From the IMG/VR virus record IMGVR_UViG_3300009079_000105, positions 1-26,409 of that record: a stretch of DNA of 26,409 nt, one strand, 5' to 3'. The notes beneath the pieces are model-generated. The model worked only from the letters and a program-made list of their open reading frames with translations. It had not been told where the DNA came from and did no database searches. Positions within the stretch are counted from its first letter, which is position 1. Each line of letters begins with the position of its first letter. This stretch comes from a virus. The position numbers and the translations under genes are program-made. This document shows positions 2 through 26,128 of this stretch, piece after piece.

Positions 2-2305
2 AGTGATCCGGTATCTACCCTAAGGAGTGCGTTAGACACTCGAGTCACATTAGAGATGCTTAACAAGAGCCCAGCTTTACGTTTACTCTATGATCAGTTT
101 GGTGGTAGAAAGAATAAGACATACGGTGGAGTTGACTTTCAGAACGACAAGACTCAAAACTTTACAGATTTTGAAAAGTACTTAAGACCCATGGAAGCGG
201 TACTTGGGAGCTTTAGGGTTAAGGCTAAGTCTTATGGTAAGCGTAAGAAAGCTATCTCTACCTTAGTTTATGACTTTTATCTTAATGAAATAAAGAAAGT
301 CACTAAGACAGATGAGAAGGGTAATGTAAAAACTATGAGTGGTGAGCAGGTTATTGCCGCTATAGATTGGAACAACCTTTCAAAGCCAGAGTACACCGAG
401 AATACTGTAGCTCTTAAGGAGTTTATACAAGAACTGTATAACGTTGATGATGCTATGTATCAAAACGTAACAGCTGTACAAGAGATGTCAGGATCAAGCA
501 AGATAGGTAACCTTCAGGATCACATATTTAGAAGTAAAAGCTTTTTAAAATCTGCTATTGCTAAGAATAAAGAAGAGTTTATTAACCTATTAGCTGAAGA
601 GTATGGTCTCAGTAGAGATGTAGCAGCTAGTGTTACTGATCTTATTGTAGATAACCCCGATGTGAATACATTAGATGAAGCTTTTGATTTGACTAAGGGT
701 GGTATACTACCTAAGACACACAAAAGAAGATCATTAAGTCTTTCGGATAACCCTAAGTTTGATAAGTTTGTAGAACAGGATTTGTTTAGAAACTTAGAGA
801 ACCTTATGAAAGGGTCTGCTCGTTACATGACAATGACTAAGTTTGTTGGACGTAACAGTGAAGTGCTACTACAGCAAATAACTGATGTGTACAATGACTT
901 GCGTGGTGATGCGGAGGTTAACTCTGAAGCTGAGAAAGAAGCCAGAAGAGTTGTAGAAGAGCTAGCGGCAAACCTTAGGGACCTTGTAAATGCTGACTCT
1001 GGTAACTATAAAAGAATTAATAACCCTACTATACGTGGGGCTCAGAAGTTCTTAACAGCTACAGCTACACTCAGTATGCTACCACTTGCAGCTATATCTT
1101 CTGTAGTAGAGTTCGCCCTAGTATTTAAGGGTGCATCTTTACAAACAATACATAAGAATGTAGGTAGTTTTGGTATACTTGTAGGCAAGGAGCTTCATGA
1201 GTACTTTAAGGAAGTTGGAAGGATTGCGGGGGTAACACCACAGTTTAGTAACTTTGACTCACAACTTAAGTCAAGAGCTCAAAGATTAGGTGAAGACTGG
1301 AGACATAAGGATATAGATGACCCTAGGAAACTCATAAGGGAAGCTGGTTTCTTATCTCAAAAGACTGGTGCAGCTACAGTGGTAGGTGTGTCTGAGTCTA
1401 ACCAGTTTACTGAAGCACTAATGAACTCTTTCTTTAAGATTATTGGTTTGCAAGGTATTACTAACCTTACCCGTACCATGAGAGCAGCTATATACAATGA
1501 CTTCTTAATTGAAAACTTAGACATAATACACAGACAAGAAGGTAAACCACCCACTAATGAATCTGCTGAATCTGAGAAAATGCTAAGGTATATAGGTATC
1601 CCTATAGACCGTATGCTTGACCTTTCACGTAGACTTAAAGTGGCTCAGGATACCGATGGTAACGTTAGTGAAGAGCTAATTGCAGCTTGGGATAGAGAGT
1701 TTAATAATGGATTAATTAACTTTGTCAACGCTTCAGTACCAATGCCAGGAGCTATGAGCAGACCACTGTTCTATAGTAACCAGCACTTTGCAATGTTCAC
1801 TCAGTTCCAAGGTTTTATCTCTGAGTTTACAGCTAATCACTTACCTAATATGTGGGACACTGTTAAGACTGCAAACCCAGGGATGAAGTTTTCTGTCTTT
1901 GCATCTATCATGTCTATGCTTATGCTAGGCTATGCATCTCAGTACCTCAAGGACCTTATAAAATATGGAGAAGGATCACCATACTTATCAGATCAAGAGA
2001 AGTATTTGAGAGCATTGTACTCTACAGGATTGTTAGGTACAACAGAAAGAATATGGAGTAACAACTACATCTTACCTTTGTATAAGGATAGAAGTAGAAA
2101 TGCAACAGAAGCGATTTGGAACTTTGCGTCAGGAGAAGCCCCTGTCACAGGTATCTTTGAGAATGTAGTGGGCTTCGGACGGAGTGCAATGGAAGGTGAT
2201 ACAAGAGGTACCTTTAAAAGAGGTTTAGGTCTAACACCATTAGGCCCCTTTAAGCACAGACTATACGACACATCCGTAGAACAAGGTTGGATAACAGGAG
2301 AATAG
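2..2305 (+). CDS. Probable internal virion / DNA-ejection protein, 5' end outside window
   Basis: The reading frame is open from the first bases of the window, and the first ATG (56) has no convincing ribosome site. The gene therefore almost certainly begins upstream and only its last ~767 codons are present. The visible part is rich in charged helices and has two hydrophobic stretches, at about residues 330-356 and 615-635 counted from that ATG. These could insert in or cross a membrane. The C-terminal ~130 residues are aromatic- and Gly-rich. I recognise no catalytic motif. Size, mixed helical/hydrophobic make-up and position directly before a second giant gene, at the end of a rightward operon facing the replication genes, fit the large internal virion proteins of podoviruses (T7 gp15/gp16 class). 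That assignment rests on context, not on a recognised domain. The next gene starts 3 nt after its stop. Confidence 0.6.
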   Translation, partial: SDPVSTLRSALDTRVTLEMLNKSPALRLLYDQFGGRKNKTYGGVDFQNDKTQNFTDFEKYLRPMEAVLGSFRVKAKSYGKRKKAISTLVYDFYLNEIKKVTKTDEKGNVKTMSGEQVIAAIDWNNLSKPEYTENTVALKEFIQELYNVDDAMYQNVTAVQEMSGSSKIGNLQDHIFRSKSFLKSAIAKNKEEFINLLAEEYGLSRDVAASVTDLIVDNPDVNTLDEAFDLTKGGILPKTHKRRSLSLSDNPKFDKFVEQDLFRNLENLMKGSARYMTMTKFVGRNSEVLLQQITDVYNDLRGDAEVNSEAEKEARRVVEELAANLRDLVNADSGNYKRINNPTIRGAQKFLTATATLSMLPLAAISSVVEFALVFKGASLQTIHKNVGSFGILVGKELHEYFKEVGRIAGVTPQFSNFDSQLKSRAQRLGEDWRHKDIDDPRKLIREAGFLSQKTGAATVVGVSESNQFTEALMNSFFKIIGLQGITNLTRTMRAAIYNDFLIENLDIIHRQEGKPPTNESAESEKMLRYIGIPIDRMLDLSRRLKVAQDTDGNVSEELIAAWDREFNNGLINFVNASVPMPGAMSRPLFYSNQHFAMFTQFQGFISEFTANHLPNMWDTVKTANPGMKFSVFASIMSMLMLGYASQYLKDLIKYGEGSPYLSDQEKYLRALYSTGLLGTTERIWSNNYILPLYKDRSRNATEAIWNFASGEAPVTGIFENVVGFGRSAMEGDTRGTFKRGLGLTPLGPFKHRLYDTSVEQGWITGE

Positions 2306-2308
2306 CTA

Positions 2309-5300
2309 ATGGCTAGACGAGCAGGCGGAGGGTCTACGATTGTAGGCCCTAAGGATGTTACACCAGAACAAGAACAAGCTAGGTTAGATGAATCACTAGC
2401 AGCCCTAAGGGCTACGGCAGCCAAAGGACAGGCTGAACGTGACAAGATGGATGAAGTTATTGGGGCTACGGAAGGCCCCCTTGACTTACCTTCAGAGCAG
2501 GTTACGGAACAACTAACACAGGAAACAGAAGCTGCAAAGATCCTACCACAAATAGAGATCCCAGCGACCCCTGATGTATCTGAAGATAATACTTTAGCAG
2601 AACTATCTGCAAGACAGAGGGAAGCTGAGAGGGTGCCAGGGCTTCTTGAGCGTACAGGGATAACACCTGTAACTGAAGGTGGTACTACTAGGCTTAAAGG
2701 TGCTGAGAATGCTTTTGGTCTTGAGATGGTTGATAGGCTTAGGGGTTTTACTGATAGGGTTTCTACTCAATTAGATCCTGTATCATTACCTATATCTAGA
2801 GCTGCAGATATGGACCCTAATAATCCATTGTTTGATGATCAGCTTGAAAAGTTTAATACCGATGACCCAGAACAAACCTTACGTATGAATAAAGGTGAGG
2901 GTGCTTTAGCACTTACTAAGTCTAATGTTTTGTTGTCAAGACAAGGGTTGGGTATAGGTAAATGGAACCCTGATTGGAACCCTGCTGAAGTAGACATTGA
3001 TAGTAATGGTAAGCTTACTAACTACAACGACTTAACTACTGTGCAACCAGCAATAATTGATCCTGTATATGGCATAGGTGTAGCCTCTGTAATAGAACCT
3101 TTTTTACTACAACAAGAAGCTATGGATGCTATTGCTGTACTTGATGAAGATCAAGGGGGAAGGCCTAAGGAAGAATCTCAGGATTTTTCTATGCAGGCTG
3201 GAGGTCGTGAACTTTTTAAGGCTTTACGTAAAATGCGTTCTGAAATTGAAGGCGAACCCTCTGACTCTTATGTGGCAGATTATGAAAACTTTACACCTGA
3301 AGCTTTTGAGCTTATTTTTAAATGGGGTTTAGATACCTATGCTCAAGCTAACCCAGAGATGGTTACAATAATTCCAGGTATTAAGGGAGAAGCTACTAGA
3401 GGTTATGCGTTGACTCGTGAAGGTATGGATACGTTAGAGCGTGAAGTTGATAAGTATAGACCTGTAGACTTTGACTATCCACTTATGGTTGAGACATCAC
3501 CTGAGGGGACCTTTCAGTATGAGCAAAGGACTGCACGAGGTAGTACAGGACAGAACCCTAATAGAGATCCGTCTATAGTAGAGGAAGCTAAGTATAACGC
3601 ACACCAAGTTAACATAGTGTTTGACAATCAACGTACTAAGATTGCTACACTATTTGGTGCTCATGCACTTGCTACTGCACCTGTAGAAGGTAGACAGGAA
3701 GGTACAAACTTTACTCTTGATGCGTTTGATATAGGCCCTCAAAGATACTTGAAGATTAAGAGTATTGCTGCTAAACAACAAAGTCTTGTAGAGAAATATA
3801 AGATAGATCGTGAAGAGGTTAAGGCTCAAATAGAAGAAAACCCACTACCTTTCTTATATGCTAAACTTGATAGGCTTAATGAGAATATTAAGTTTAGAGA
3901 AGAGTTGGTAGAAAAGTACACTAAACCTGAAGTTATTAAGCAGCTGTACTATCAACATGCTAATAAGAATCTTGAGGTCCTTGTGAATCTAGCTAAGTAT
4001 GATGGAGATACTTTTCATTATTCTTATTTTAATCAACGAGCTACCCAAAGACTAACTACTCATCAGAATAAGATGTCATTTCAAAACAATCACCTTGTAC
4101 GTAACGTAGTAGGGTCTGGTGTTAAGTATGACATACGCCCTATGAGTGGTTCCCCTAATGAAGTTTCTTTCTTAGAAAACATGGGGTACTTATTCTTTGA
4201 TGGTGCAGGTATGGTGCCACAAGCAGCAACTAATAGAGCAAGGCAGCACATAACCCAAAGGTCTCCTAGGTACAAGCGACTTGTAAGTATGGGGTCTAAG
4301 CTTAAGGATGCGTTAGATAACTATAACCCAGAAGTAACTAGGGGTCAGTTTAAAAACGTTAAGGTTACCCCTAAAGGTATCTCTGGTGTAGATGGTATTA
4401 AGGCTACAATGCCTGAGTCTATTATGAATGATACTGAAGTTAAGTCTTTCTTAGATGCTATGTCAGCTGAACCTGATTCACATAAACACTTTGTACAAGT
4501 TATGGATTATCTTATAGACTTGGCTAAGTATGATGAATCTATGAAAGCAGGTAAGTCATTCCATACTTCTATAAACTCTATTGAGGTTGATGGTATTTCT
4601 AACGGACTAGCTTCTATGTTTTCTGCATTAGGTATGGAAAGTAAACTATATAGGGTTGGAGTTAAGAGGGCTGCAGGTCAGGAGAAAATCCTTGGAAACT
4701 TTAAGGATATACCTAACAGGGATGCTTATGAAGGTAATATCAGAGCTACACTACAACAAAACCTTCAAGAGTTTTTATCAGACGATTTAGGTGTACTATA
4801 TGATTCCGCATGGATGCGTAAGTATGGTTATAATGAAACTCAAGTACCTATGCTACAAGAGATAATTAAAATTGCCTCTGATGACCGCAATGAAACTACT
4901 TTTAAAAAAATGCCACTTATGACGTTTAGTTATGGTCAAGAGTTACCTAATTTAATTGGATCTGTATATGACACTATCTTAGGTGACCCAGAACTTAAGG
5001 CTCTTATTGAAGATGCTTTCCCTGGGGGTATCCCTAAAGCTGCTGAGTTCCTTAACGATTTTAGGAATTTAGCTATCGAGTTAACTTTAGGTAGTGAGAT
5101 AACTAATTTTGCATCTAGTCTGAAAAGGTTTGTTGAAGTATCTTCTATGTATAATAGACCTGTAGTATTAGACAGTGCAGCTGGTGGTAAGATTTCTTTT
5201 GGTGGGTTTATTACTAAAGATGACCCTACTAAAAAGCAATATGCTACTAGACCTGCACCACCAATAGACAAAGGTGGTAGACAAATAAGCCGTAAGAAAC

Positions 5301-6136
5301 TAGAAGCCCAGATTAAGAAAGCTAAAACACCTAAACAAAAAGAAGCTTTGCAACGTCAGCTAGATAGACTACCCCCAGAAACTAAGGTTGTTATTAAGCC
5401 TAAGGTTTCTACGTTTAGTCCTCATGCTGAGAAGCAAGGTATGATTGGTGCAAGAGCCCGAGGTTCTATACTGATTGCTTTTGGTCAGGGTTTTGATGGT
5501 GCTACTATGCTTAATGTTTTTGCAGGTAAGAACTGGAATAATATTACTAAGCAGAATGGTGGTAGAACACCTTTTATTTTACCTATCTATGACGCTATTG
5601 TGACTGACCTAGGTTCTATGCAAGCATCAAGACAAGCTATTAATAATTCATGGGTTGATCTAACAACTAATGGTAAGGTTCTTAAAAGTTTACAAGATAA
5701 TGTAACAGGGAATGTTGTCTATGGAAGGAAAGAGTTTAAGCGGATGGCTGAAGAGTCTCCTAAGAAACTTATAGATCAGGAAGAACATGGAATGTTAGTA
5801 GGGTATATAGCCAGTAAACTAATCCGATTAACTTCAGCTGATCCAGACCTCAAGGAAGTAGGTAGGGATTTGCGTCAAGAGTTATTGGGTGAAGGTGCTA
5901 CATACTTAGACTTGTTTGCAGCTCAGGAGTTCTTACTTAAGAATGAGTATGAACTGGGTGATACTATCCCTGCACAAGTTAGCAAGTTAGTAAGGAATGC
6001 GAATGAAAGATCAAGGAAGGTAGCTCAGAATATCAAAAAGGATTATGATATTATGGGTACTGAAGCAGAGGTACTACAGTATGCTGCTGACGATTTAAAA
6101 CTTAGCAAAGTCCTTAAGACCTTTGACGAGGGATAG
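2309..6136 (+). CDS. Candidate virion-associated single-subunit RNA polymerase (N4 vRNAP-like, very divergent)
   Basis: This 1275-residue protein starts at an ATG 8 nt after AGGAG. It carries, in order, what look like the conserved blocks of single-subunit RNA polymerases. A T/DxxGR-like block holds R577-ATQ-R581, followed by a conserved-looking N587, Q592 and R598. Motif A is EVDGISNG with D761 as the putative metal ligand. Motif B is K867-MPLMTFSYG with Y875. Motif C is PIYDAIVTD with D1095. The spacing D761-Y875-D1095 (114 and 220) lies between T7 RNAP (102 and 173) and N4 virion RNAP (119 and 273, as I recall its catalytic residues). The first ~550 residues are unrecognised; residues ~995-1030 are a Lys-rich predicted helix. 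Placement as the last gene of the late operon, behind a probable ejection protein, fits a polymerase packaged in the capsid. The TxxGR glycine is replaced by Gln, so activity is unproven. The alternative is an unrelated internal virion protein. Confidence 0.62.
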   Translation: MARRAGGGSTIVGPKDVTPEQEQARLDESLAALRATAAKGQAERDKMDEVIGATEGPLDLPSEQVTEQLTQETEAAKILPQIEIPATPDVSEDNTLAELSARQREAERVPGLLERTGITPVTEGGTTRLKGAENAFGLEMVDRLRGFTDRVSTQLDPVSLPISRAADMDPNNPLFDDQLEKFNTDDPEQTLRMNKGEGALALTKSNVLLSRQGLGIGKWNPDWNPAEVDIDSNGKLTNYNDLTTVQPAIIDPVYGIGVASVIEPFLLQQEAMDAIAVLDEDQGGRPKEESQDFSMQAGGRELFKALRKMRSEIEGEPSDSYVADYENFTPEAFELIFKWGLDTYAQANPEMVTIIPGIKGEATRGYALTREGMDTLEREVDKYRPVDFDYPLMVETSPEGTFQYEQRTARGSTGQNPNRDPSIVEEAKYNAHQVNIVFDNQRTKIATLFGAHALATAPVEGRQEGTNFTLDAFDIGPQRYLKIKSIAAKQQSLVEKYKIDREEVKAQIEENPLPFLYAKLDRLNENIKFREELVEKYTKPEVIKQLYYQHANKNLEVLVNLAKYDGDTFHYSYFNQRATQRLTTHQNKMSFQNNHLVRNVVGSGVKYDIRPMSGSPNEVSFLENMGYLFFDGAGMVPQAATNRARQHITQRSPRYKRLVSMGSKLKDALDNYNPEVTRGQFKNVKVTPKGISGVDGIKATMPESIMNDTEVKSFLDAMSAEPDSHKHFVQVMDYLIDLAKYDESMKAGKSFHTSINSIEVDGISNGLASMFSALGMESKLYRVGVKRAAGQEKILGNFKDIPNRDAYEGNIRATLQQNLQEFLSDDLGVLYDSAWMRKYGYNETQVPMLQEIIKIASDDRNETTFKKMPLMTFSYGQELPNLIGSVYDTILGDPELKALIEDAFPGGIPKAAEFLNDFRNLAIELTLGSEITNFASSLKRFVEVSSMYNRPVVLDSAAGGKISFGGFITKDDPTKKQYATRPAPPIDKGGRQISRKKLEAQIKKAKTPKQKEALQRQLDRLPPETKVVIKPKVSTFSPHAEKQGMIGARARGSILIAFGQGFDGATMLNVFAGKNWNNITKQNGGRTPFILPIYDAIVTDLGSMQASRQAINNSWVDLTTNGKVLKSLQDNVTGNVVYGRKEFKRMAEESPKKLIDQEEHGMLVGYIASKLIRLTSADPDLKEVGRDLRQELLGEGATYLDLFAAQEFLLKNEYELGDTIPAQVSKLVRNANERSRKVAQNIKKDYDIMGTEAEVLQYAADDLKLSKVLKTFDEG

Positions 6137-6164: not shown

Positions 6165-6191
6165 TAAAAAAAGGGGCCCGCTAAGGCCCCT
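6165..6191 (-). terminator. Rho-independent terminator of the leftward block
   Basis: The 7-bp perfect stem AGGGGCC/GGCCCCT (6172-6191) has a 6-nt loop. On the minus strand it is followed directly by seven T (A run at 6165-6171). It lies past the last leftward gene and ends that transcript. Confidence 0.85.
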
Positions 6192-6194
6192 CTT

Positions 6195-6222
6195 GGACCC
6201 CTTAATTGGGGTCCTTTTTTTT
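6195..6222 (+). terminator. Rho-independent terminator of the rightward late operon
   Basis: The 7-bp perfect stem GGACCCC/GGGGTCC (6195-6214) has loop TTAATT and is followed by eight T (6215-6222). It lies ~60 nt after the stop of the 1275-residue gene. The T run overlaps the stop codon of the convergent leftward gene, so the two operons are packed end to end. Confidence 0.9.
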
Positions 6223-7252: not shown

Positions 7253-9349
7253 TTAAGAAAAGAAATAATCTGAGCTAACTACTTCCTCTACTTTGAGGGT
7301 TCCTAGCTCGGGTTGTTGTACAGAGTACCCTTTGAAGTTTTCAATCAACATGGATTGTATTCTATCAAAGAAGTTGTTTACGTTGTATAGCATAGCAAAT
7401 TGCCACTTAGTGTGCTCGACTAATTTATCTATGTCACAAGCATGGGTAGAGAATGAATCATGGATAGCCCCAAAGGTCCCAGGGAATGCTTCAATAACCT
7501 TAGCCATATGGGCTGCATCCATTGAGTGTACAAAGTTAGGTGAACATCCAGATGCAAAGGACCTTCTACAAGGTATTCTGTTACCCTCTTTCGTGGTTAC
7601 AGGTATCTTTACACTATGTCCTATCCTACCTACTGTACGTATGGTGCTTCGGAACGTCATGTTCTTTTGCTTCCATACCTCATAGAGCACAGGGAACCCT
7701 GAGGGTGTAGTCCATTGTAGACAAGTCTCTCCGCTTTCGATTATAAAGTTAGTTACCTTCTGCAGAAACTTCATGGTCTTTAGGGGACCAACACATGTAT
7801 CGTTAATAGCAAGGATTAGATTACGTGCAAGTAACTCAGAGTCCTCTTTGGTTACCTTATACTTCTTATGGTAACCTTCAACCTTACAATCATGATACAT
7901 ATTCTCTGCTATCTTACGTTGACCTGCAGAGTAGGCTCTTGTCATAGACCCACGTTTAGCGATCCCTTTCCTAATACACTTCATTGGCATATTACGTTCA
8001 GCAAACCAATCAGGCATTCTCTTTATTAATCGTTTAGCTACTTGTACATAGAAGTCTTTCTGTATCTCTTGGGGTACAAGGGACACTAACTCACCTGCTT
8101 GTTTGTCTTTGGACATTGCAGCTAGGTGTTGCCACCCATTGTTACTGCCATCTACAGGTATTGGTAAGTGTGACTTGTAATCCTCACCAGTATCAAGGTA
8201 TCCCTTAAGGTCCAGTGCACATGCCAATAGAGTTACTGGTTTCTCTGCGTCCATCTTGAACTCCAGGTTCTTTGCAGAATCCAGAATCATATTGATGTTC
8301 TTCAGAGTCCATTGTGCTCTATCATCTAAGGTCATCTTGTCTACTGATATAGTATCCAAGCCTTCCTCTTCTAAGTGTGCCTTGTAATCTTTTCTTAGCC
8401 ACGGCATAGTCTCCAGCTCATCTAACGTATATGACTTGTTGTATGAACAGGCAGTATGTATGCACAGCCAATAGTAACCTCGAGGTCCTAGGCGTTTACC
8501 TTCATCAAACTCAAACAAACCCTTAGCTATATCAGAGCCTTGGAAGTTTAAGAATGATTCCGTGTAGTATACCCTACCTCTATAATCACATTCGACTGCT
8601 TGATAGAAAGTCTGATCACCAATTGCATTAGCCTTGTTCAGTACGAACTTCATTTCAATACGTTTAGACTTACCCTTATCGGATGAGTCTTTCATATCTA
8701 CAAACTTAGATACGTTATCTCTCATAGCCTTTACAAGGGTAGTGTTTAAACGCCATGGAACTCTCTGTAGCTTGTCTAAAGCTTTTACAAAGGGCTCATC
8801 AAGGCATTGGTTAAAGTCTCTCTCAGAGGTCATACGTTTGATATACGGCCTCTTGGTTATTGGGTTACGTAAGCCAGTTATACGTGGGAATTTCCTGAAG
8901 CTAGTACCTGTTAAGGTTGACCCTTCATATGCGGGTGGTATGTCTCCTAGTTTTTCCCAAGTATCTGTAAGGTATATCACATAAGGTGCACGATAACCTT
9001 CATACTCACGTTCAAGCTCCATGTACCCTAAGATTATAAAGGCTTCTACAAACAAATCACCTACACAGAATAACTCTGTATACGTACTGTTAGTTAAACC
9101 TATCCTGGATACTACAGCTAACCCTATGGCTGATGATGTAGCGGTTAGTTTGAATGGTTTCCCATGGGCCCTACGGGACTTTAGGAACACACTCTGTGCA
9201 GCCTGTACTGCTGCAATAACTAACTCCTCATAGTCAACACCATAATCTACATGCCTGTTTAACAACTCGATGCCCGAGTGATTCCTACCTCGGGCACCTT
9301 CTCTATTACTTCTTATATACTCTGCTACTTTATGGATAGCATTAGTCAT
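7253..9349 (-). CDS. T7-like single-subunit DNA-directed RNA polymerase
   Basis: This 698-residue enzyme would transcribe phage promoters. All catalytic blocks are clear. D255-YRGR (R259) is the DxxGR motif. Motif A is PVDGSNNGWQHLAAM with D400. Motif B is K465-RGSMTRAY with Y473, the residue that selects ribonucleotides in T7 (Y639). NFVHSMDAAHM is followed by motif C, IHDSF, with D631. The C-terminus SDYFFS resembles the aromatic 'foot' that ends T7 RNAP. It is ~185 residues shorter than T7 RNAP (883 aa), mostly at the N-terminus, so promoter-binding elements differ. Motif B reads Y-S-A-G rather than Y-G. The ATG directly follows the stop of the primase-helicase gene, with AGGAG 6 nt upstream. 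Unlike in T7, the gene is near the end of the early/middle block. Confidence 0.97.
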   Translation of the reverse strand: MTNAIHKVAEYIRSNREGARGRNHSGIELLNRHVDYGVDYEELVIAAVQAAQSVFLKSRRAHGKPFKLTATSSAIGLAVVSRIGLTNSTYTELFCVGDLFVEAFIILGYMELEREYEGYRAPYVIYLTDTWEKLGDIPPAYEGSTLTGTSFRKFPRITGLRNPITKRPYIKRMTSERDFNQCLDEPFVKALDKLQRVPWRLNTTLVKAMRDNVSKFVDMKDSSDKGKSKRIEMKFVLNKANAIGDQTFYQAVECDYRGRVYYTESFLNFQGSDIAKGLFEFDEGKRLGPRGYYWLCIHTACSYNKSYTLDELETMPWLRKDYKAHLEEEGLDTISVDKMTLDDRAQWTLKNINMILDSAKNLEFKMDAEKPVTLLACALDLKGYLDTGEDYKSHLPIPVDGSNNGWQHLAAMSKDKQAGELVSLVPQEIQKDFYVQVAKRLIKRMPDWFAERNMPMKCIRKGIAKRGSMTRAYSAGQRKIAENMYHDCKVEGYHKKYKVTKEDSELLARNLILAINDTCVGPLKTMKFLQKVTNFIIESGETCLQWTTPSGFPVLYEVWKQKNMTFRSTIRTVGRIGHSVKIPVTTKEGNRIPCRRSFASGCSPNFVHSMDAAHMAKVIEAFPGTFGAIHDSFSTHACDIDKLVEHTKWQFAMLYNVNNFFDRIQSMLIENFKGYSVQQPELGTLKVEEVVSSDYFFS

Positions 9350-10963
9350 CTAAGCTCCTGCATTGTAGTCTAAGAAATCTACTTGACCTTTCAATCGTTT
9401 TGTTCTCTGGTCATAGTAGGCAGAACCACAGTCACCTGTGAGACCAGTAAATCTGGACTTGAGAACTCTCAGGTGTATGGTGTTGCGCTCATCTTCATTC
9501 TGTGCAATTAAGTTACGTGCAAAGGTAATGATGTCAAAGCTAATTTGTTTGATCGAACCTGACCCCTTGATGTCATCAATAGAAGCTAGGTGTCCCTCTT
9601 CGAAGGACTTACCCTGAGACTTACGTAGGTGGGATATAATACCCAACCATACATCATGCTTCTTAACTACCTTAAGTAAGTCAGACATGATAGCATCAAT
9701 AGCTTCATTACCTGTCTTACCATCAGAGCCTTCTGACACTGCAATAGTTATGTGGTCAAGCACTAGGTATTTACAGCCTAGTAAACAAAGGTTTTCTATC
9801 TGATCTATAAGAGATGAATCTGATACAGCACCGTTGTGATCAAGCAAAATGAGACGATTATCTCCAAATACTTTATCAAAAGCTTTTCTCTCCTGTTCTT
9901 CTGTAGGATCTTCAGGTGTAAACATCTGTATAAACTTTTGAGCGGAGTCACCGATAGATTCCTCTAGTGATATCATCCCTATGTTATCTTCGGTTTCTGT
10001 CTTCAGTTGTAAGATGATCTCCTTGATCATTGTTGATTTACCGCTACCTGTACCTGAGGTAAACAGAGTAATCTCTCCCTGCCTCATACCTGATAGCTTA
10101 TCGTTAAGTCCTTCTAGACACTTGGGGTAAGGCACAGATTTAACTGTCTTACGTTTAGTAAACTCCTCCCAAATATCTTCCCCTCTTACTACGCTTGCTG
10201 GGGTATACTGTCTAGCACCCCAGAAAGCACTGATGATTGCAGAGTGACCATGCTTTATTAGTGTTTCACATGGGTCATTCTCTGGCAAGTGTGCTACCTT
10301 TACTTTATCCCAACCAATAATCTTGGCGGCCTTGTCGATAGCTTTCTCACCTGCTTCATCTTGGTCGAACATAAGTACAACCGTATCAAAAGATCTTACC
10401 CACTCCCTGTTAGCAATCAATGGGTTTAGATTACTAGATGAGGGCAGGGAAACTACAGGGTATATCTTTCCACTTTGACTTAAGTTTGCTTGGGCTACAG
10501 CCATAGCATCCAACTCACCCTCAGTGATAGTCAAAGTCTTACCGCCCCGACTAAAGGACGATTGACCAAAGAGTTCAATGTCAGAGAAGTTACCCTTGAC
10601 CTTGAAGGCCTTAGGTAGTTCTCGTATCTTGAACGCTGTAGTCTTACCCTTAACTGTGTAAGGATAGTAGTGTGCCTCGATAGTACCATCCATATTGTAC
10701 GATACTTTCATTCCATAGTGCATTGCAACTTGCTTAGTGATACCTCTCTCTTGAACCCCACGGGTATCATAGGATTCAATTGTTTCTAATGTTTCAGTTG
10801 CTACTGGAGTCTTTGGTTCTGGCATATCAGTTTCTCTATCTTTTTCTACTGTAACTTTCCCACAAACAAAACACTTACCAATACCGTTGGAGTACATACC
10901 AACGCCATCAGAAGATCCACAATGTTTACAGGGCATATGTTTTACAAATCTATCTTTAGTCAT
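9350..10963 (-). CDS. T7 gp4-like bifunctional primase-helicase
   Basis: This ~537-residue protein primes and unwinds DNA at the replication fork. An N-terminal zinc ribbon (Cys12, 15, 31, 34) is followed by a TOPRIM primase core (ITEGELDAMAV and FDQDEAG). A RecA/DnaB-type helicase follows with Walker A SGTGSGKST (K309) and Walker B KYLVLDHI. Length matches T7 gp4 (566 aa). I prefer the ATG at 10963, which has GGTGG 5 nt upstream, over a GTG at 10972 that has no ribosome site. The gene ends directly against the RNA polymerase start codon and follows the GIY-YIG gene after ~18 nt, within a compact replication cluster. Confidence 0.96.
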   Translation of the reverse strand: MTKDRFVKHMPCKHCGSSDGVGMYSNGIGKCFVCGKVTVEKDRETDMPEPKTPVATETLETIESYDTRGVQERGITKQVAMHYGMKVSYNMDGTIEAHYYPYTVKGKTTAFKIRELPKAFKVKGNFSDIELFGQSSFSRGGKTLTITEGELDAMAVAQANLSQSGKIYPVVSLPSSSNLNPLIANREWVRSFDTVVLMFDQDEAGEKAIDKAAKIIGWDKVKVAHLPENDPCETLIKHGHSAIISAFWGARQYTPASVVRGEDIWEEFTKRKTVKSVPYPKCLEGLNDKLSGMRQGEITLFTSGTGSGKSTMIKEIILQLKTETEDNIGMISLEESIGDSAQKFIQMFTPEDPTEEQERKAFDKVFGDNRLILLDHNGAVSDSSLIDQIENLCLLGCKYLVLDHITIAVSEGSDGKTGNEAIDAIMSDLLKVVKKHDVWLGIISHLRKSQGKSFEEGHLASIDDIKGSGSIKQISFDIITFARNLIAQNEDERNTIHLRVLKSRFTGLTGDCGSAYYDQRTKRLKGQVDFLDYNAGA

Positions 10964-10981: not shown

Positions 10982-11530
10982 TTAAGGTTCTTTACTATCT
11001 GTCTCTTCTTCTGAGACTGCTGTTTCTTCTGCATCCGTGCGGTTTTCTTGCTCCTTGAACTCTTCTCGTATATCGTCTGTGATTCCGACAAGTCTTTGTC
11101 TTGTTTCATTGTCTACTGATTCCTTAGGTATAAATTTAATTGCACCTATTTGTCTGTTAAGAAAGACAGGAGTACCATCAGGGTACTTCTCTGTTAACAC
11201 ATCAAGATCCCATTGTACCTTAACTTCTCCTGCAGATAAACCACCTTTGGTTTCAAACAGTTGTAGTATCTCATAGGTAAAGTACTCTTCACCAAGGTTA
11301 CTTATCATTTTATTGATGTGAGATGATGAGCTACTATAGGTTTTCCAGTTGGATACCTTACGTTCTTTACCCTTACGATACATATGGAACTGCTTCCTAC
11401 CTATATATCTTTTAGGTTCTTCAGGGTGACTACAAGTAATTAAGTAGATGAACCCAAAGTAATCATCAGGGTCGAAGTCAGGACCACTGTATACCCAGTG
11501 GCCAAGGTTTTGTTTAAAGTCTGTCTTCAT
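10982..11530 (-). CDS. GIY-YIG superfamily endonuclease
   Basis: The 182-residue protein has GIY-YIG hallmarks: G26-F-I-Y29, then R41-Y-I-G44-R45-K46, the NWKTYSSSS block, and a later putative metal-binding E102 in GLSAGEVKVQ. This arrangement is common in phage proteins annotated as Seg-like homing endonucleases. The C-terminal ~45 residues are an acidic, low-complexity tail. It sits between exonuclease and primase-helicase genes, where T7-like phages often carry a nuclease. It could act in DNA breakdown or replication-intermediate processing, or be a free-standing homing nuclease. The start overlaps the 84-aa gene by 17 nt. Confidence 0.82.
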   Translation of the reverse strand: MKTDFKQNLGHWVYSGPDFDPDDYFGFIYLITCSHPEEPKRYIGRKQFHMYRKGKERKVSNWKTYSSSSSHINKMISNLGEEYFTYEILQLFETKGGLSAGEVKVQWDLDVLTEKYPDGTPVFLNRQIGAIKFIPKESVDNETRQRLVGITDDIREEFKEQENRTDAEETAVSEEETDSKEP

Positions 11531-14388: not shown

Positions 14389-16242
14389 TTAGTATGTTAT
14401 TTCACAGGCCCCGCCTGCACAAGCTGCCTCAGCACTGAGGTCAGTCTTGTCTTCTACTTCTTTAACTTGGGTCAGGTCAATACCTGTAAGGGCACCTTCC
14501 ATAATACGATATCGTTCTTCTGAGATATCCTCAAAGGGTGCTTGTACATATGTGCCACCATTATAAGGGAGTACAGAGATACCGTTGTAAGTGTAACGAT
14601 TCTTCCACATCCACTCACCTACCAGTTCCCACTCATCTTCTTTAAGAGAGATAGTACATGATACGTTATGTGAGTTCTGCCCTTCACGGTGACCAACACC
14701 TACCCATTCTACATTGTACTTACGTACACGCTCGAGTAGATTAAGTGGACTTTCAGTTCTTAGAATAGAACCTTCAGGTGCAGCTTGAGGGATTTCAATT
14801 ACAGCTTGCTCTTCAGGGTTGAAATACTCATCTTCAACCAGCTCTGGATGGTGCTCAGAGAAGTAACCATATAAGGCTTCATTCTTTCCAACACGTTGGC
14901 GACGAATATAATAATCGTTATGCCAAGCGTGGATACCAGAACTACTACCAAGGACGCAAGAACTTGTACCAGAAGGCTTAACTGTCGTACATCTTGCCGC
15001 AGGATTGATACCCAGTAGCTTTGCCACTCTTTCATTTTCTTTCTTAACTTCATTTGCTGCTTCCTCCAGATCATATTCTAACACAGTACCTGAACCAATA
15101 CCAGTTTGACCTACACCAATAAGTGCATCACGTTGACAAGTCTCTTGCCACTCAGGTCTTAGGTAATGGAAGTCAGTGTACCCTGCTTGTAGTGTACCAA
15201 TTAAAGATGCTGCTCTTGCTCTTTCGTTTAGATCCTTTTGAGATTCAACGTTAGAAGCATTAAGCTCTGTTAGGTTACACATCTGGTAAGGTCGTAAACC
15301 AATCTCACAACATGGGTTAGTACCCCAGTCTTTGTCATTGGTAAAGTATAACCCTGGCTCACCAGAACCAGACAACTCTACACGTTCCCATAGTTTATCA
15401 AAGGCTTCCTTTGTAATCTTATGGCGCAGCATAACAGCTGAGTTGTTTGATCGTGCACGTTGTGGGTTCTCTTCCCACCAATTACCAGCCTTACAGGCTA
15501 ACATATCATTGTCATCCATAGAGAACAACGAGATCATAGCAGCCCTACGGATACCACCAGTCAATACAGCGTCAGCAATGTAGCACATCATATCATGCAC
15601 TTCTAACGTTGTTAGTTGACGACCGATAGCTTGGTCAAAGATAGCTCTCATGTTGTGAATACAATCCTTGAGGGGCTGAGGGCCTGGAGCTTTACCACCA
15701 GTAGTAATAAGCATTGCACCCTTAGGTCTAATATCACGATAGTCAAACTCAACATCCATCATGTTATTAAAGTAAGATTCACATAGAACCTTTACTGCAT
15801 CTGCCCACCCTTCGATGTTATCAGATACTAGGAACCTACGCTTACGTGCCTTAGGCCCTGCAACTTCTGGTAGCTTACGTACATGGTGACGTTGAACTGA
15901 GTAACCTACACCAGTACCACCTAGTAGCAGGAACATAGACTCAGCGAAAGCTTCAGGGCTTTCTATAGGTAGGTATGCACAGTTGTAGATTCGATTAGGT
16001 GCTAACTCAATTGGTGCACCACCAAACTGTAGTGATCGCATTGATGGCAGTACTTTCTTACTATACACAAGCTTGTACGCCTTCTCGATTTCCTTACGCA
16101 TCTTAGGGTACTTACGTTGGTGCATCTCTTTATTTCTAGTTACCAGTTCATACCAAGTTTCCCTACGCTCAAGGTCTGGTATATATTTAGCGTACTTACT
16201 GAATACTGTTATGTCTGATAGTATTTTATTTGATGTGTTCAT
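14389..16242 (-). CDS. nrdJ: Adenosylcobalamin-dependent (class II) ribonucleotide reductase
   Basis: The 617-residue enzyme reduces ribonucleotides to deoxyribonucleotides using a B12-generated thiyl radical. The key residues line up with Lactobacillus leichmannii RTPR: C88 (NCAYLPI), radical C311 in NPCCEI, E313 and C322 (MCNLTEL). The 311/313/322 spacing is the same as C408/E410/C419. The C-terminal redox pair C608-AGGA-C613 matches C731/C736. TVKPSGTSS is the phosphate-binding loop. It is shorter than RTPR (739 aa) and of the monomeric type; I see no ATP-cone. No small subunit or activase is present or needed. AAAGGTAGAG precedes the ATG, which overlaps the endonuclease VII stop. It supplies dNTPs for the adjacent polymerase and makes replication dependent on host-derived cobalamin. 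Confidence 0.96.
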   Translation of the reverse strand: MNTSNKILSDITVFSKYAKYIPDLERRETWYELVTRNKEMHQRKYPKMRKEIEKAYKLVYSKKVLPSMRSLQFGGAPIELAPNRIYNCAYLPIESPEAFAESMFLLLGGTGVGYSVQRHHVRKLPEVAGPKARKRRFLVSDNIEGWADAVKVLCESYFNNMMDVEFDYRDIRPKGAMLITTGGKAPGPQPLKDCIHNMRAIFDQAIGRQLTTLEVHDMMCYIADAVLTGGIRRAAMISLFSMDDNDMLACKAGNWWEENPQRARSNNSAVMLRHKITKEAFDKLWERVELSGSGEPGLYFTNDKDWGTNPCCEIGLRPYQMCNLTELNASNVESQKDLNERARAASLIGTLQAGYTDFHYLRPEWQETCQRDALIGVGQTGIGSGTVLEYDLEEAANEVKKENERVAKLLGINPAARCTTVKPSGTSSCVLGSSSGIHAWHNDYYIRRQRVGKNEALYGYFSEHHPELVEDEYFNPEEQAVIEIPQAAPEGSILRTESPLNLLERVRKYNVEWVGVGHREGQNSHNVSCTISLKEDEWELVGEWMWKNRYTYNGISVLPYNGGTYVQAPFEDISEERYRIMEGALTGIDLTQVKEVEDKTDLSAEAACAGGACEITY

Positions 16243-16613
16243 TCTCTACCTTTCTTTAAATAATTTCTTATACGAGTCAATGCACCGAAGTCATCCTTCA
16301 GTCCGCCTAGTGTTCTGTTACACGAGTGGCATATCCATCCCCTAAACTTACTGGTTAGGTGGTCATGATCTAATGCCCATGGTGATTTATTCTTACCACC
16401 ACAACCCTTTGCTTCCTCTGCATTACGTAAACAGATAGGGCATTGGTAATCTTCTGGAGGTGGTTCAACTGTATCCCTAAGTTCCTTACGTACCTTTGCA
16501 ACGGATCTTATACAAAGTCTACAGGTAGTCTTACGATATGCCCTACCACTTTCCATAGGGAAATCTTCTTCTGACTTTTTTACTCCACACTTATTACATA
16601 TTTTATATTGCAT
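16239..16613 (-). CDS. Recombination endonuclease VII (HNH-type)
   Basis: This ~124-residue protein has an N-terminal CxxC...CxxC zinc knuckle (CNKCG, CRLC), then CPIC, and the endonuclease VII core ALDHDHLTSKFRGWICHSCNR with a following GG. The family (T4 gp49) cuts Holliday junctions and branched DNA before packaging; small versions can also act as HNH nickases. I place the start at ATG 16613, with AGAGGT about 9 nt upstream. An in-frame ATG at 16643 has no ribosome site and would overlap the upstream gene more deeply. Its stop overlaps the RNR start (ATGA). Confidence 0.88.
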   Translation of the reverse strand: MQYKICNKCGVKKSEEDFPMESGRAYRKTTCRLCIRSVAKVRKELRDTVEPPPEDYQCPICLRNAEEAKGCGGKNKSPWALDHDHLTSKFRGWICHSCNRTLGGLKDDFGALTRIRNYLKKGRE

Positions 16614-16791
16614 AAATAGAGACCTCTTCTGTAAGCTCTGCATCTACTTTAGATACAAAGTTAATAAACCCAGAGGGCTCCCGTGATTTATACTCTTGTT
16701 CTTCTTCTTCTAGCAATGGTATTACTTGGCCCACAAGGGATGCATACCATTTACTACTGTCGTTACAACTAATTATCTTTATATTTTTCAT
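16603..16791 (-). CDS. Hypothetical protein, 62 aa
   Basis: This short protein begins with KNIKIISCNDSSKWYASLVGQ, a pattern (beta strand, then SxxWYAxxxG) that I associate with small conserved phage proteins of unknown role. The C-terminus is acidic. The reading frame continues upstream to a GTG at 16857, but the ATG at 16791 forms an ATGA overlap with the stop of the 55-aa membrane ORF upstream. That decides the start. Function unknown. Confidence 0.65.
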   Translation of the reverse strand: MKNIKIISCNDSSKWYASLVGQVIPLLEEEEQEYKSREPSGFINFVSKVDAELTEEVSIYAI

Positions 16792-16955
16792 ATCCAACCT
16801 AGCTGAGTTGCACTGTTGATTATAATCATAAAGCAAGTTACGATATGGACAAGCCACCAGAAAGTCCTGATGACTGCCACAGCATCTGCTTGGTTCTTAC
16901 TTTCGCCCACCTTTTCGCCCAAGCTTTTTGCCCAGATACGCCACCACTTTTTCAT
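16788..16955 (-). CDS. Small membrane protein, 55 aa
   Basis: This ORF encodes MKKWWRIWAKSLGEKVGE, a short polar linker, and one transmembrane helix (TFWWLVHIVTCFMIII, residues 31-46). The N-terminal basic/Trp-rich amphipathic start followed by a single helix resembles small membrane proteins that recur in marine phages, as I recall. AAGGA lies ~10 nt upstream, and the TGA overlaps the next ATG (ATGA). Its first 59 nt overlap the end of the 54-aa ORF in another frame. Its role is unknown; lysis or envelope interaction is possible but not shown. Confidence 0.65.
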   Translation of the reverse strand: MKKWWRIWAKSLGEKVGESKNQADAVAVIRTFWWLVHIVTCFMIIINSATQLGWI

Positions 16956-17061
16956 ATCCAATCTTTCCTTTTAAGAATTTCTTCTGGGTTTTACTTAAGC
17001 TTTCACTTAGTACATAGGTTATTACGATAGCTAATGATACTACTACTAAAACTTCAAACAT
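16897..17061 (-). CDS. Small membrane protein, 54 aa
   Basis: This ORF has one N-terminal transmembrane helix (FEVLVVVSLAIVITYVL, residues 2-18) followed by a strongly basic tail ending LGKKLGRKGGRK. It starts 3 nt after the stop of the 46-aa gene, with AAAGGT about 9 nt upstream. Its last 59 nt are shared, in another frame, with the next membrane ORF. A single helix plus a basic cytoplasmic tail is compatible with a holin-like or other small membrane effector, but nothing in the sequence proves it. Confidence 0.6.
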   Translation of the reverse strand: MFEVLVVVSLAIVITYVLSESLSKTQKKFLKGKIGYEKVVAYLGKKLGRKGGRK

Positions 17062-17063
17062 AA

Positions 17064-17204
17064 TTATTTACCTTTTGTTTTATCTTTTGAGGAGCCCGAA
17101 GGGCTCTTAGTTTCTTTCTCTTTGTTTCCAAATATCTTATCCCAATTGTCTTTGAAACTGGTTTGATTTGGGATAGGTCGAGGTCTTGATCCTTTACCTG
17201 ACAT
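17064..17204 (-). CDS. Small conserved phage protein, 46 aa
   Basis: The product begins MSGKGSRPRP and contains FKDNWDKIFG followed by a Lys/Ser-rich tail. I recognise this SGKGSRPR...F..NWD.IFG pattern as a small protein frequent in tailed phages, of unknown function. AGGAG lies 7 nt before the ATG, and the gene begins 1 nt after the DUF6378-like stop. The codons for KSPSGSS contain a perfect 6-bp hairpin (17092-17106) repeated elsewhere in the window. Confidence 0.75.
   Translation of the reverse strand: MSGKGSRPRPIPNQTSFKDNWDKIFGNKEKETKSPSGSSKDKTKGK
17092..17106. repeat. GAA-triloop hairpin, copy 1 of a 17-nt repeat
   Basis: GGAGCCCGAAGGGCTCT (17091-17107) forms a 6-bp perfect stem with loop GAA on the plus strand. 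An identical 17-mer occurs at 26113-26129. This copy lies inside the 46-aa gene. There is no minus-strand T tail, so it is not a standard terminator for the leftward transcript. Confidence 0.7.
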
Positions 17205-17205
17205 A

Positions 17206-17472
17206 CTATTCTCCTGTAAGTTCCTGATCAATTAGTGTTGCATATCCTGCAATGTCATGCCAACTATCTGCATAGTTAGGATCACCGTTAAGTATCCTTG
17301 CAATCTTATGCACTACCATTTCAAGAGATTCTTTTTGAGAGCATGTAAGCCTGTCCCAGTTGTCGGTGTTTCTCATTGTCTCTTTAAAAGACTGAGAGAT
17401 TTTACCCTGGGACTCAAAGGTTCCGTACCTATTACCTCTTTCTTCTAATGTAATATCAGTGGACTGTGGCAT
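17206..17472 (-). CDS. DUF6378-like phage protein, 88 aa
   Basis: The core EERGNRYGTFESQGKISQSFKE...NWDRL...QKESLEMVVHKIARILNGDPNYADSWHDIAGYATL is the small helical domain I know as DUF6378, common in phages and prophages; its function is not established. The conserved Asp/Glu/His positions (EMxxxKIARI, DSWxDIAGY) recall the helical layout of MazG-type metal-binding proteins, but I would not infer activity. The ATG at 17472 with GGAGAAG ~6 nt upstream is preferred to a TTG at 17517. It overlaps the upstream 68-aa gene by 17 nt. Confidence 0.8.
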   Translation of the reverse strand: MPQSTDITLEERGNRYGTFESQGKISQSFKETMRNTDNWDRLTCSQKESLEMVVHKIARILNGDPNYADSWHDIAGYATLIDQELTGE

Positions 17473-17662
17473 CAGGTTCTTCTCCATCAGTTTCTGGGCC
17501 TGTCTCTTCACCCCCAATATCTTGTACGCAATCTAATATGTATGCGCATAATTCAAAGGCTTTACTTTCTTCATCTACTATATCAATTCCTTCAGACTCA
17601 AAGCTTACTTTAACATTTGAGTTATCTTCTGTATCTTTTACTCGTATAATATACGATGACAT
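17456..17662 (-). CDS. Hypothetical acidic protein, 68 aa
   Basis: A beta-prone N-terminal half (SSYIIRVKDTE, VKVSFESEGIDIV) and one helix are followed by a very acidic tail. The family is not recognised. Several ATGs lie close together; the one at 17662 has GGAGG with 8 nt spacing and is preferred over 17677 and 17668. It is the first gene after a terminator and a pair of repeated motifs (17665-17717), so it probably heads a transcription unit. Confidence 0.65.
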   Translation of the reverse strand: MSSYIIRVKDTEDNSNVKVSFESEGIDIVDEESKAFELCAYILDCVQDIGGEETGPETDGEEPDATVH

Positions 17663-19000: not shown

Positions 19001-19384
19001 TCAAATTAGTTCCTTTAAAGTTGCACTATGTGCTTTCCAATTTCCAGAGGACACTATTGGGCTACGCTTGTAGCGTTCACCTTGTAAGGTGTATATCAAT
19101 GCGTCTCCGAATTTAGTTGATACTTCTTCCTTGTCATAAAAGTTATTCACACTATCTTTAGAGTGGTAACCTTCTAACATATCAAGTCTTTCAAGTGTAT
19201 CAGAGTCTACTTTGTATACTTCTACAAAGATAGACCCCTCACCTTTACGGATACCAGGGAAACTACCAAGTGAAAACATTTCATAGTTTGGTATCCACTC
19301 TCTTCCGATAAGCTTAGAGTTACCTAATACTCTATGATTACCTAAGCCTTCACGGAGTGAACCGTACACTGCTACTTTAGTCAC
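19001..19384 (-). CDS. Gamma-glutamylcyclotransferase-like (GGCT/AIG2 fold) protein
   Basis: The 127-residue protein has the fold's signature VAVYGSLREGLGNH at the N-terminus. A central LDMLEGYHSKD segment has a Glu in the position expected for the catalytic acid, and the WKAHS end is typical. Enzymes of this fold cyclise gamma-glutamyl groups and so release the amine partner (GGCT, GGACT, BtrG). Here it lies last in the amidoligase cassette, so it may cut a gamma-glutamyl or similar amide made by the upstream ligases, or protect against misligation (inference). I prefer the GTG at 19384, 8 nt after GAGGA and 4 nt after the preceding stop, over an ATG at 19423 that lies inside the upstream ORF without a ribosome site. 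Confidence 0.85.
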   Translation of the reverse strand: MTKVAVYGSLREGLGNHRVLGNSKLIGREWIPNYEMFSLGSFPGIRKGEGSIFVEVYKVDSDTLERLDMLEGYHSKDSVNNFYDKEEVSTKFGDALIYTLQGERYKRSPIVSSGNWKAHSATLKELI

Positions 19385-19388
19385 GATA

Positions 19389-19544
19389 TTAATCCTCTTT
19401 GGTTTCGTGTTTACTATACTCATCTATAAGAAACTCTTTATACTCTGAGCAATAGTCTTTGTATTGAAGAATAGGATCACCATAAGCAATCCTTTCATCA
19501 ACGTTTTCTTTAAACATTTCTTTTTTAAACTCTTCAAAAGTCAT
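19389..19544 (-). CDS. Hypothetical protein, 51 aa, within the amidoligase cassette
   Basis: This is a small acidic ORF (MTFEEFKKEMFKENVDERIA...) rich in Glu, Lys and Tyr, predicted helical. It begins 2 nt after the ATP-grasp stop, with GAAGAG upstream, and ends 4 nt before the preferred GGCT start. The tight fit between two genes supports it as real. A short highly charged protein in such a cassette could be a peptide substrate or carrier, but there is no direct evidence. The family is not recognised. Confidence 0.6.
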   Translation of the reverse strand: MTFEEFKKEMFKENVDERIAYGDPILQYKDYCSEYKEFLIDEYSKHETKED

Positions 19545-19546
19545 AG

Positions 19547-21845: not shown

Positions 21846-22738
21846 AATTTATCCTTTATCTTTGACAATTGTCTTTCGCCTTGGTTATGACTTACTATTA
21901 AGTCGTGAACTTCTCTTAAACGAGAATTAAAAAGTAACTCTTCTGCTACCCATACACCTTGAAAGATCTTCATGCTTGAGTCATTAGCATGGATCTTATT
22001 TTCTCTTACAAGATCACCGAACACATACTTTAGCATAGCTTTAGAACCTTCAGTGCTAAGTAGTGTTGGTATATCTGAGATGTATTTATTAGGATCTAAT
22101 ACAAACTGTTTCAAACAAAGTAAATGATTGATCCAATTGATTAGCCTATCTTTATCACAGGTACCTTCATGACCTCTGAACTCAATAGCCCCACGTTCCA
22201 CAAGGGATTGCAGGTTTATTGCAGAGTATTTCTCCCAAGATGAATGCCTTAAACGATCAGGTCCATCCTTAAAGATATCAAGTAGCCTACTGATTTGGTT
22301 TTGACCACGGTATAAAGACAGAGAGTATATACTTTCTTCTCTCTCTTGACCACATATACTAAACAGGTAAGGCTCTACCATAGCATACAGTGTAACGAGG
22401 TCACATACTTTAGACCATAGCATATCTCTCGCATCTACATGGACATGTACTGAAGTTCTAAAACCAAAAGTACCTTGGCCTTCCAGTGCTTCTTCAAGCT
22501 TTGATAGCCTTGAGACTGCAGCAGAACCACCAAGAGGCCCACGGAATACATACTCTACTCCATTGTTACGTAAAGATCCATCGGGTATACAACGCCACCC
22601 AGGGACTTTAGGGGCATCAGGTAAGTTTTCTATCTCAACCTCAACACCTACCCTTGTTCCTGAGATAAGCTCCCCTAACCTAGTTGTATCTGGGTCAGGT
22701 TCTTTATGGTTGTAATAAGATTGAATTGTGTAGTCCAT
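21833..22738 (-). CDS. Amidoligase (glutamine-synthetase fold, Amidoligase_2 type)
   Basis: Numbered from ATG 22738, the GS-like catalytic pattern is clear. GVEVEIE (E33, E35) is followed by DGSLRNNGVEYVF (D53, E62), SVHVHVD (H98, H100), KYSAINLQSL, and IEFRGHEGT (E176, R178). The family is predicted to make amide bonds between a carboxylate and an amine with ATP. I choose the ATG with GGAGG 10 nt upstream over a TTG at 22747. It overlaps the genes on both sides. A second, different amidoligase lies two genes upstream. Its substrate is unknown. Confidence 0.88.
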   Translation of the reverse strand: MDYTIQSYYNHKEPDPDTTRLGELISGTRVGVEVEIENLPDAPKVPGWRCIPDGSLRNNGVEYVFRGPLGGSAAVSRLSKLEEALEGQGTFGFRTSVHVHVDARDMLWSKVCDLVTLYAMVEPYLFSICGQEREESIYSLSLYRGQNQISRLLDIFKDGPDRLRHSSWEKYSAINLQSLVERGAIEFRGHEGTCDKDRLINWINHLLCLKQFVLDPNKYISDIPTLLSTEGSKAMLKYVFGDLVRENKIHANDSSMKIFQGVWVAEELLFNSRLREVHDLIVSHNQGERQLSKIKDKLCAD

Positions 22739-25565: not shown

Positions 25566-26045
25566 TTAGAACAACTCTGCTGAAGCTTTAGAGTCTGATT
25601 CTACTTCAAGACCTAACAGGGCTGATGAAAGACGATCTTGTTTAGATTGCTTGACATTGAAGTCAAGGGCACGAACTGCAACAAGTCTAACATTAGTACC
25701 AGCTTTGAACTTGGTACCATCTTTACGAACACCTGCAGGGTAATCACGAAGCTCAAACAACATATGAGCCTTAGCACCATTCTCTAAGTCATCAGTGATG
25801 TCTTCACCGTTCTCATCCATAATATCTACAGGAGGAACTTCAACATCCATTGAACCATACTTAGCATTAGTACTGTACCAATAACCACCATCATTGGCTT
25901 CTTTCAGACCTATCTCAGCCAGACCTTCACCCATAAGATGAGCTCCGTACTGTAGACCATACTTGCCTTGATACGCTCTACGCAACTTACACGCAGAGAT
26001 AGTTATATTGGGGATTGCTACTTCACGAATTTTAACGTTTGACAT
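25566..26045 (-). CDS. Second gp2.5-like OB-fold, probable ssDNA-binding protein
   Basis: The 159-residue protein starts at ATG 26045 (AGAGGA ~8 nt upstream); the frame runs further upstream but without a better start. Its C-terminal half mirrors the ssDNA-binding protein at 18471-18938. VDIMDENGEDITDDLENGAKAHMLFELRDYPAG...NVRLVAVRALDF lines up with VLVDGKKQPI...IGNGSVGNVKVYRREYD...LTAIQITNLIEY. Both end in an acidic or polar tail with terminal Phe (here KASAELF). This suggests a diverged paralogue that binds ssDNA or nucleic acid early in infection. Similarity is by eye only. Confidence 0.65.
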   Translation of the reverse strand: MSNVKIREVAIPNITISACKLRRAYQGKYGLQYGAHLMGEGLAEIGLKEANDGGYWYSTNAKYGSMDVEVPPVDIMDENGEDITDDLENGAKAHMLFELRDYPAGVRKDGTKFKAGTNVRLVAVRALDFNVKQSKQDRLSSALLGLEVESDSKASAELF

Positions 26046-26113: not shown

Positions 26114-26128
26114 GAGCCCGAAGGGCTC
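26114..26128. repeat. GAA-triloop hairpin, copy 2 of a 17-nt repeat
   Basis: This 17-mer at 26113-26129 is identical to the one at 17091-17107: a 6-bp stem GAGCCC/GGGCTC with loop GAA on the plus strand. Here it is intergenic, after the 63-aa gene and ~70 nt before the OB-fold start. A second weak stem (AGAG-CC/GG-CTCT) lies just downstream. Confidence 0.7.

Follow-up and report, generated by a model that had tools for sequence, protein, structure and literature searches.

The IMG/VR virus record IMGVR_UViG_3300009079_000105 (26,409 bases, its completeness being unstated), which stems from an uncultured marine phage, was analysed over its whole length, referred to here as the window. As originally predicted, positions 2309..6136 on the + strand hold an intact open reading frame (ORF) with an ATG start that encodes a protein of 1275 amino acids (aa), and the fold and family of this protein are well supported: it is a relative of the virion RNA polymerase (vRNAP) of phage N4. 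With a probability of roughly 0.8, it would be a compact packaged RNA polymerase (RNAP) that transcribes the early genes, probably from DNA-hairpin promoters, and feeds a cascade carried on by a T7-like RNAP of the same phage. The evidence computed for it comprises the polymerase fold, the catalytic residues, the homology to N4 vRNAP, the position in the late operon and the linkage to an ejection protein.

Catalytic motifs and their conservation

Motifs A, B and C were found at the residues given by the original prediction. Motif A, EVDGISNG (E759-G766; 4583..4606, + strand), aligns E759 and D761 with E557 and D559 of N4 vRNAP; motif B, K867-xPxxTxxY875G876 (4907..4936, +), has its counterparts in N4 K670 and Y678; and in motif C, IYDAIVTD (5585..5608, +), which lies between two strands of the structural model, D1095 corresponds to N4 D951. 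Upstream of these, R581 (4049..4051, +) is the counterpart of N4 R424, the arginine of the TxxGR motif. The distances D761-Y875 (114 residues) and Y875-D1095 (220) fall, as had been noted, between those of T7 RNAP (102 and 173) and those of N4 (119 and 273). The N-terminal ~200 aa are probably flexible and the polymerase core occupies residues ~200-1275 (~1,070 residues), so the description of the protein as minimal is fair when set against the ~3,500 residues of the N4 enzyme.

Close relatives of the window protein (68-100% identity) were few, and a homologue search with alignment A1 added no members. The diversity of the family came instead from using the T7-like RNAP of the phage (7253-9349, - strand) as bait, which yielded 79 loci, 77 of which were examined (L044 and L093, both ending inside the RNAP, were excluded). 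A large ORF convergent with the T7-like RNAP was present in all 50 loci that extend at least 2,250 nucleotides (nt) beyond it, and 38 such ORFs were full length (1190-1342 aa). Each of these 38 contains three patterns derived from the family alignment: DGxxNG, KxPxxTxxYGQ and [YF]D[AE]xx[TGP]D.

This alignment combined 22 representatives, with 21-92% identity to the window protein, and the window protein itself. Only 46 of its 1275 columns are invariant, and they include R581, D761, G762, N765, G766, K867, P869, T872, Y875, G876 and D1095. The five residues R581, D761, K867, Y875 and D1095 are thus conserved in 23/23 sequences down to 21% identity; a loss of the last four in homologues would have spoken against the original prediction. 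As these five had been picked before any homologue was seen, the motif signal exceeds chance (p ~5e-8 for all five being invariant, under independence). ExDGxxxG, given in PMC10654107 as a signature motif for N4 vRNAP, is present in 20/23 members, the window protein among them. Motif A is preceded by E in the compact family and by P in the T7-like RNAPs of the same phages, where the sequence PVDGSNNG was found in 16/17; the RNAP of Roseobacter phage CRP-7 has AIDGTCNG.

Profile kinship and predicted fold

The family alignment was compared by hhalign with a profile of six mini-vRNAP regions from Schitoviridae, that of N4 among them; another four were excluded because their C-terminal parts misaligned. 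The comparison gave a score of 56.9 (E 3.3e-5, probability 72%) over 765 columns, with the register R581-R424, D761-D559, K867-K670, Y875-Y678 and D1095-D951, at an identity of ~12-14% between the compact family and N4 vRNAP. Against the profile of the phages' own T7-like RNAP the same family scored 32.0, and against CRP-7-type gp33, the neighbouring protein and reversed profiles it scored 18-26; the highest reversed control over all profile pairs was 37.7. Profile comparison therefore favours N4 vRNAP over the T7-like RNAP family, in agreement with the N4-type assignment first proposed.

An AlphaFold2 (AF2) model of residues 150-1275, built from the 23 sequences, reached a mean confidence (pLDDT) of 78.5 and a pTM of 0.69. 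The original prediction had called for such a model to be compared with the N4 mini-vRNAP structure, and had regarded a fold devoid of a right-hand palm domain as evidence against it. The predicted fold is that of a right-hand single-subunit RNAP with palm and fingers; the N4 mini-vRNAP promoter complex (3c3l_A) ranked first in the Foldseek search of the PDB (E 2.3e-12), and all 50 listed matches were single-subunit RNAPs. In BFVD the top two matches were the vRNAPs of Vibrio phage phi50-12 and Roseobacter phage RD-1410W1-01. From the modelled fold and the profile register together, D761 and D1095 are implied to share one active site.

Standard annotation sees almost nothing of this. Pfam gave no match for the window protein and no RNA polymerase match in any of the 23 members, NCBIfam missed the family, phmmer of the window protein against PDB sequences returned chance matches only, and tblastn against 50,697 phage records returned none. 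The sole PHROGs match of the window protein was 'virion RNA polymerase' (PHROG 2206, E 1.6e-4, residues 724-876), and in single-sequence scans this entry was matched by 5/23 members (best E 2.2e-7).

Linkage to the putative ejection protein

The gene is the last of the late operon, a position beside the putative ejection protein that recurs in all 50 loci with enough downstream sequence. In the window it adjoins the C-terminal part (2..2305, + strand; 5' end outside the window) of a putative ejection or internal virion protein of ~1520 aa, which matches PHROG 6958 (virion structural protein) and whose full-length relatives measure 1517 aa and 1604 aa; the L004 protein matches an endolysin family. 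Back-to-back terminator-like hairpins (6169..6214) separate the late operon from the convergent early operon, in which a single-chain T7-like RNAP of 698 aa (7253..9349, - strand; PHROG 414) matches PF00940 with E 1.2e-60 and covers positions 1-376 of 448 in one chain. A relative of this RNAP was sought in genome contigs and none was found.

The same arrangement is present in Roseobacter phage CRP-7 (MK613349), where gp33 (1235 aa) is annotated as hypothetical. Tblastn of the window protein against gp33 found no similarity at E 0.01, and gp33 compared by profile with the window family or with N4 stayed at noise level; at the sequence level gp33 is tied to the window family only via intermediates, namely the CRP-7-clade subtypes. 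The linking profile scores were 207.6 (A4-A6), 76.5 (A4-A7) and 43.9 (A5-A6); those of A7 with the window family (42.2) and with N4 (38.4) were barely above the best reversed control, and pairs such as A6-A7 (31.1) and A5-A7 (19.5) were not above it.

Forty-one CRP-7-like RNAP loci were found in IMG/VR, 27 of which were scanned downstream; once near-duplicates had been removed, 17 convergent ORFs of full length remained for comparison with gp33. Seven belong to its own subtype (42-83% identity), and the other 10 form at least three further subtypes at ~13-16% identity to gp33. All 18 proteins, gp33 included, retain the motif A aspartate and the motif B YG. The D of motif C was seen in a MAFFT block for three subtypes, and in L110, L123 and L128 only in a later alignment, A8, whose 24 invariant columns over ten proteins of three subtypes include D665, K756, Y764, G765 and D955. 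The AF2 model of the L117 type was poor (pLDDT 58.6, pTM 0.45), so that its best PDB matches, again single-subunit RNAPs (E 1.5e-4 or worse, Z ~9), lend weak support to the fold. A similar hidden protein was looked for by motif pattern in three large late proteins from other CRP groups (CRP-3 gp20 and gp36, CRP-4 gp39), and none was found.

Within this clade the T7-like RNAPs are 84-99.6% identical, yet the proteins at the vRNAP position come in unrelated-looking versions of at least four subtypes. L110 and L123 share 87% identity in the RNAP, 63% in the vRNAP and 75% in the adjacent ejection protein, whose identity drops to ~20-29% across subtypes. The compact RNAP subtype is co-inherited with the adjacent ejection protein, and so moves with the ejection module and not with the replication module; this co-inheritance is the strongest indirect argument for a role in the virion. 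L123 and L124, with RNAPs 99.6% identical and proteins at the vRNAP position that give no BLAST match, show that a gene tied to ejection was replaced very recently.

Candidate hairpin promoters

Two identical candidate vRNAP promoter hairpins, GAGCCC-TTC-GGGCTC on the early-coding strand (template loop GAA), were located on the - strand. The one at 26114..26128 precedes the start codon (ATG, 26045) of the first early ORF (25569..26045, - strand; 159 aa, no PHROG match) by ~70 nt; the other is at 17092..17106. In the records of 22 relatives, the exact hairpin occurs as two copies ~9 kb apart in the same orientation in 4 and as one copy in 1, and was not found in 17. Near the corresponding place, L038 and L047 carry GGAGCC-TCC-GGCTCC and GGAGCC-TTC-GGCTCC, in which the stem is altered on both sides and the loop type retained. 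The same scan in N4 found GTTGC-TTC-GCAAC at 90 and AAGAAGC-TCC-GCTTCTT at 557, which we take to be P1 and P2, and the TTC and TCC loops of the window-type hairpins match those of these two. In PMC4496689 the N4 promoter is described as a 3-base loop with -10G/-12A pairing.

Across the early regions of 16 phages (279,849 nt in all), a census of C-G-closed triloops with coding loop TNC counted 21 in the early-coding orientation and 2 reversed, where shuffled sequences gave a mean of 1.2 and a maximum of 4; in late regions, 0/42 hairpins were of the TNC type. TTC was also the top loop in an unbiased triloop count (19/102; next 9). Oriented C-GNA-G triloops are enriched in the early regions of window-like and L078-like phages. 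DNA folding energies made no distinction between GNA and TNC loops. In L160 (G013:C1:39600-59500, reverse strand), five CTCAC-T(G/T)C-GTGAG hairpins stand at exactly 73 bp spacing at positions 9737-10029, upstream of early genes and outside ORFs of at least 60 aa.

Weighing of the alternatives

Several results weigh against a packaged, hairpin-reading N4-type enzyme. Structure alone cannot separate N4-type from mitochondrial or T7-type enzymes, as the VIA-align scores of the model are tied: Z 18.2 for yeast mitochondrial RNAP (622 aligned, root-mean-square deviation 8.1), 17.8 for N4 3c2p_B (609, 6.5) and 17.4 for T7 1s76_D (535, 5.1). Profile hidden Markov model searches of PDB sequences recovered no polymerase. 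PHROG 414 'RNA polymerase' was matched by 7/23 members, more than the vRNAP entry, which places the family sequence between both kinds. The R-rich TxxGR-like block of the original prediction was borne out in R581 and not in its remaining positions: T420 and G423 of N4 TRVGR have no conserved counterpart, the family-invariant Q576 aligning to T420. As for the hairpins, none of this kind was found in the early regions of L072/L081-like (54 kb) and CRP-7 (39 kb) clades, where promoter recognition would have changed or was not found; the sites come from related genomes and are non-independent, ~4-5 being independent by our count; position -8, a contacted G in N4, is C in the window hairpins; and the copy at 17092 sits in a possible 55-aa ORF.

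The tie in fold with T7 and mitochondrial RNAPs and the PHROG 414 matches would suit an active enzyme that is not packaged, a second RNAP made late and acting in the cytoplasm on late genes or replication primers. This appears improbable, because the gene ends the late operon beside the ejection protein, shares its inheritance with that protein rather than with the RNAP of the replication module, and has the packaged N4 vRNAP as its nearest profile. Very improbable is a catalytically dead ejection protein like T7 gp16 that kept only the fold of an RNAP ancestor: its location in the ejection-protein cluster and its very rapid sequence divergence could be explained in this way, but five catalytic residues are invariant in 23 homologues in which so few columns are, and CRP-7-clade subtypes with ~13-16% identity show the D / YG / D pattern again.

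Hairpins of this size also act as terminators, and in G013 and G018 a CTTTT stretch follows the GAGCCTTCGGCTC copies, so that for the candidate promoters a function in termination, or in processing or stability of early mRNAs, with the vRNAP promoter lying elsewhere, is a serious if doubtful possibility. The window copies, however, have no T-run, the loops are specifically 3-nt TNC with TTC at the top, as in N4, and the tandem 73-bp array lies outside ORFs of at least 60 aa.

Proposed role

From the evidence above we infer catalytic activity, packaging and ejection, promoter use and the cascade, the term 'virion' being founded on gene position, co-inheritance with the ejection protein and the hairpins. 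The compact vRNAP would be synthesised late, be packaged along with the ejection proteins and leave the particle with, or ahead of, the DNA. Once inside the cell, it would read the leftward-strand early genes, probably starting at short template-strand DNA hairpins with an N4-like C-GNA-G triloop, and the early products would include the T7-like RNAP, which would then transcribe later genes. Phages with this gene probably enter the cell equipped with a transcription machine of their own. CRP-7, which has been isolated and whose host is in culture, allows a direct test of packaging.

If this is true, a natural vRNAP of one-third size would reveal which parts ejection and transcription require, offer a source of small enzymes for single-stranded templates, and explain how early gene expression is possible without the host RNA polymerase.

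Other features of these phages

An early cluster at 19001-24175 (- strand) encodes peptide- and amide-bond enzymes: a gamma-glutamyl cyclotransferase, a RimK-like ATP-grasp protein, a class II glutamine amidotransferase, an amidoligase and a COOH-NH2 ligase; comparable ATP-grasp/amidoligase genes are found in Salinivibrio phage CW02 and others. A GIY-YIG SegE-like homing endonuclease (10982-11530, -) lies within the replication operon, and a small cysteine/histidine-rich ORF, HNH-like by eye, lies near the RNR gene (16239-16643, -). In L005 the DNA polymerase region (15810-17642, -) is split into two ORFs, of 340 aa and 227 aa, that lie ~126 nt apart, where the window has one 610-aa ORF; this could be an intron, an insertion or an assembly error.

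Comparison with known systems

With N4 gp50 and its mini-vRNAP the compact enzyme shares ExDGxxNG, KxPxxTxxYG, motif C, the TxxGR arginine, a colinear profile alignment and the fold, and also a late gene convergent with the early operon beside other virion genes. The window also holds candidate triloop hairpins of a kind whose loops match those at 90 and 557 in N4. The two differ in that N4 has a two-gene RNAP1/RNAP2 and the window phage one single-chain T7-like RNAP instead, and in length, since the ~1,000-aa N-terminal and ~1,400-aa C-terminal regions of the N4 enzyme are missing here. Reference N4-like genomes have vRNAPs of 2,842-3,820 aa (PMC10654107), and the window protein and its relatives fall below the ~2,800-3,800 aa of giant vRNAPs. 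The N4-like virus survey discarded vRNAP-like proteins shorter than 2,500 aa (PMC10654107, Methods section 12), a cut-off that would have excluded compact vRNAPs. A 2025 preprint on N4 gp50 states in its introduction that the large vRNAP is unique to N4-like phages (PMC12633501), and no description of a compact N4-type vRNAP outside Schitoviridae was recognised in the open literature searched.

CRP-7 gp33 resembles the window protein in gene position, size, D / YG / D motifs and neighbour order. CRP-7 as published has one RNA polymerase, ORF30, with functions assigned for 18/73 ORFs (PMC6918029); PMC12629253 lacks the term 'RNA polymerase', and its 'CRP-7' strings are those of CRP-701. T7-like RNAPs (PF00940; T7, mitochondrial) have the right-hand fold and motifs A, B and C in common with the compact family, which differs from them in its late-operon position, in the absence of an RNA polymerase Pfam match and in the E before motif A. 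Thermus phage P23-45 also has a virion RNAP, which transcribes pre-early genes including a second RNAP gene, but its enzyme is a homologue of cellular RNAP with another fold and is fused to the tape measure protein (PMC10770324). On balance we favour the view that a large and unrecognised group of marine short-tailed phages outside Schitoviridae carries compact vRNAPs, the giant enzyme of N4 being one elaborate offshoot of a wider class of ejected polymerases. Some of the compact vRNAPs would use C-GNA-G hairpins as N4 does and others different promoters, and they would evolve so fast and be swapped so freely with the ejection protein that several subtypes show almost no sequence similarity.

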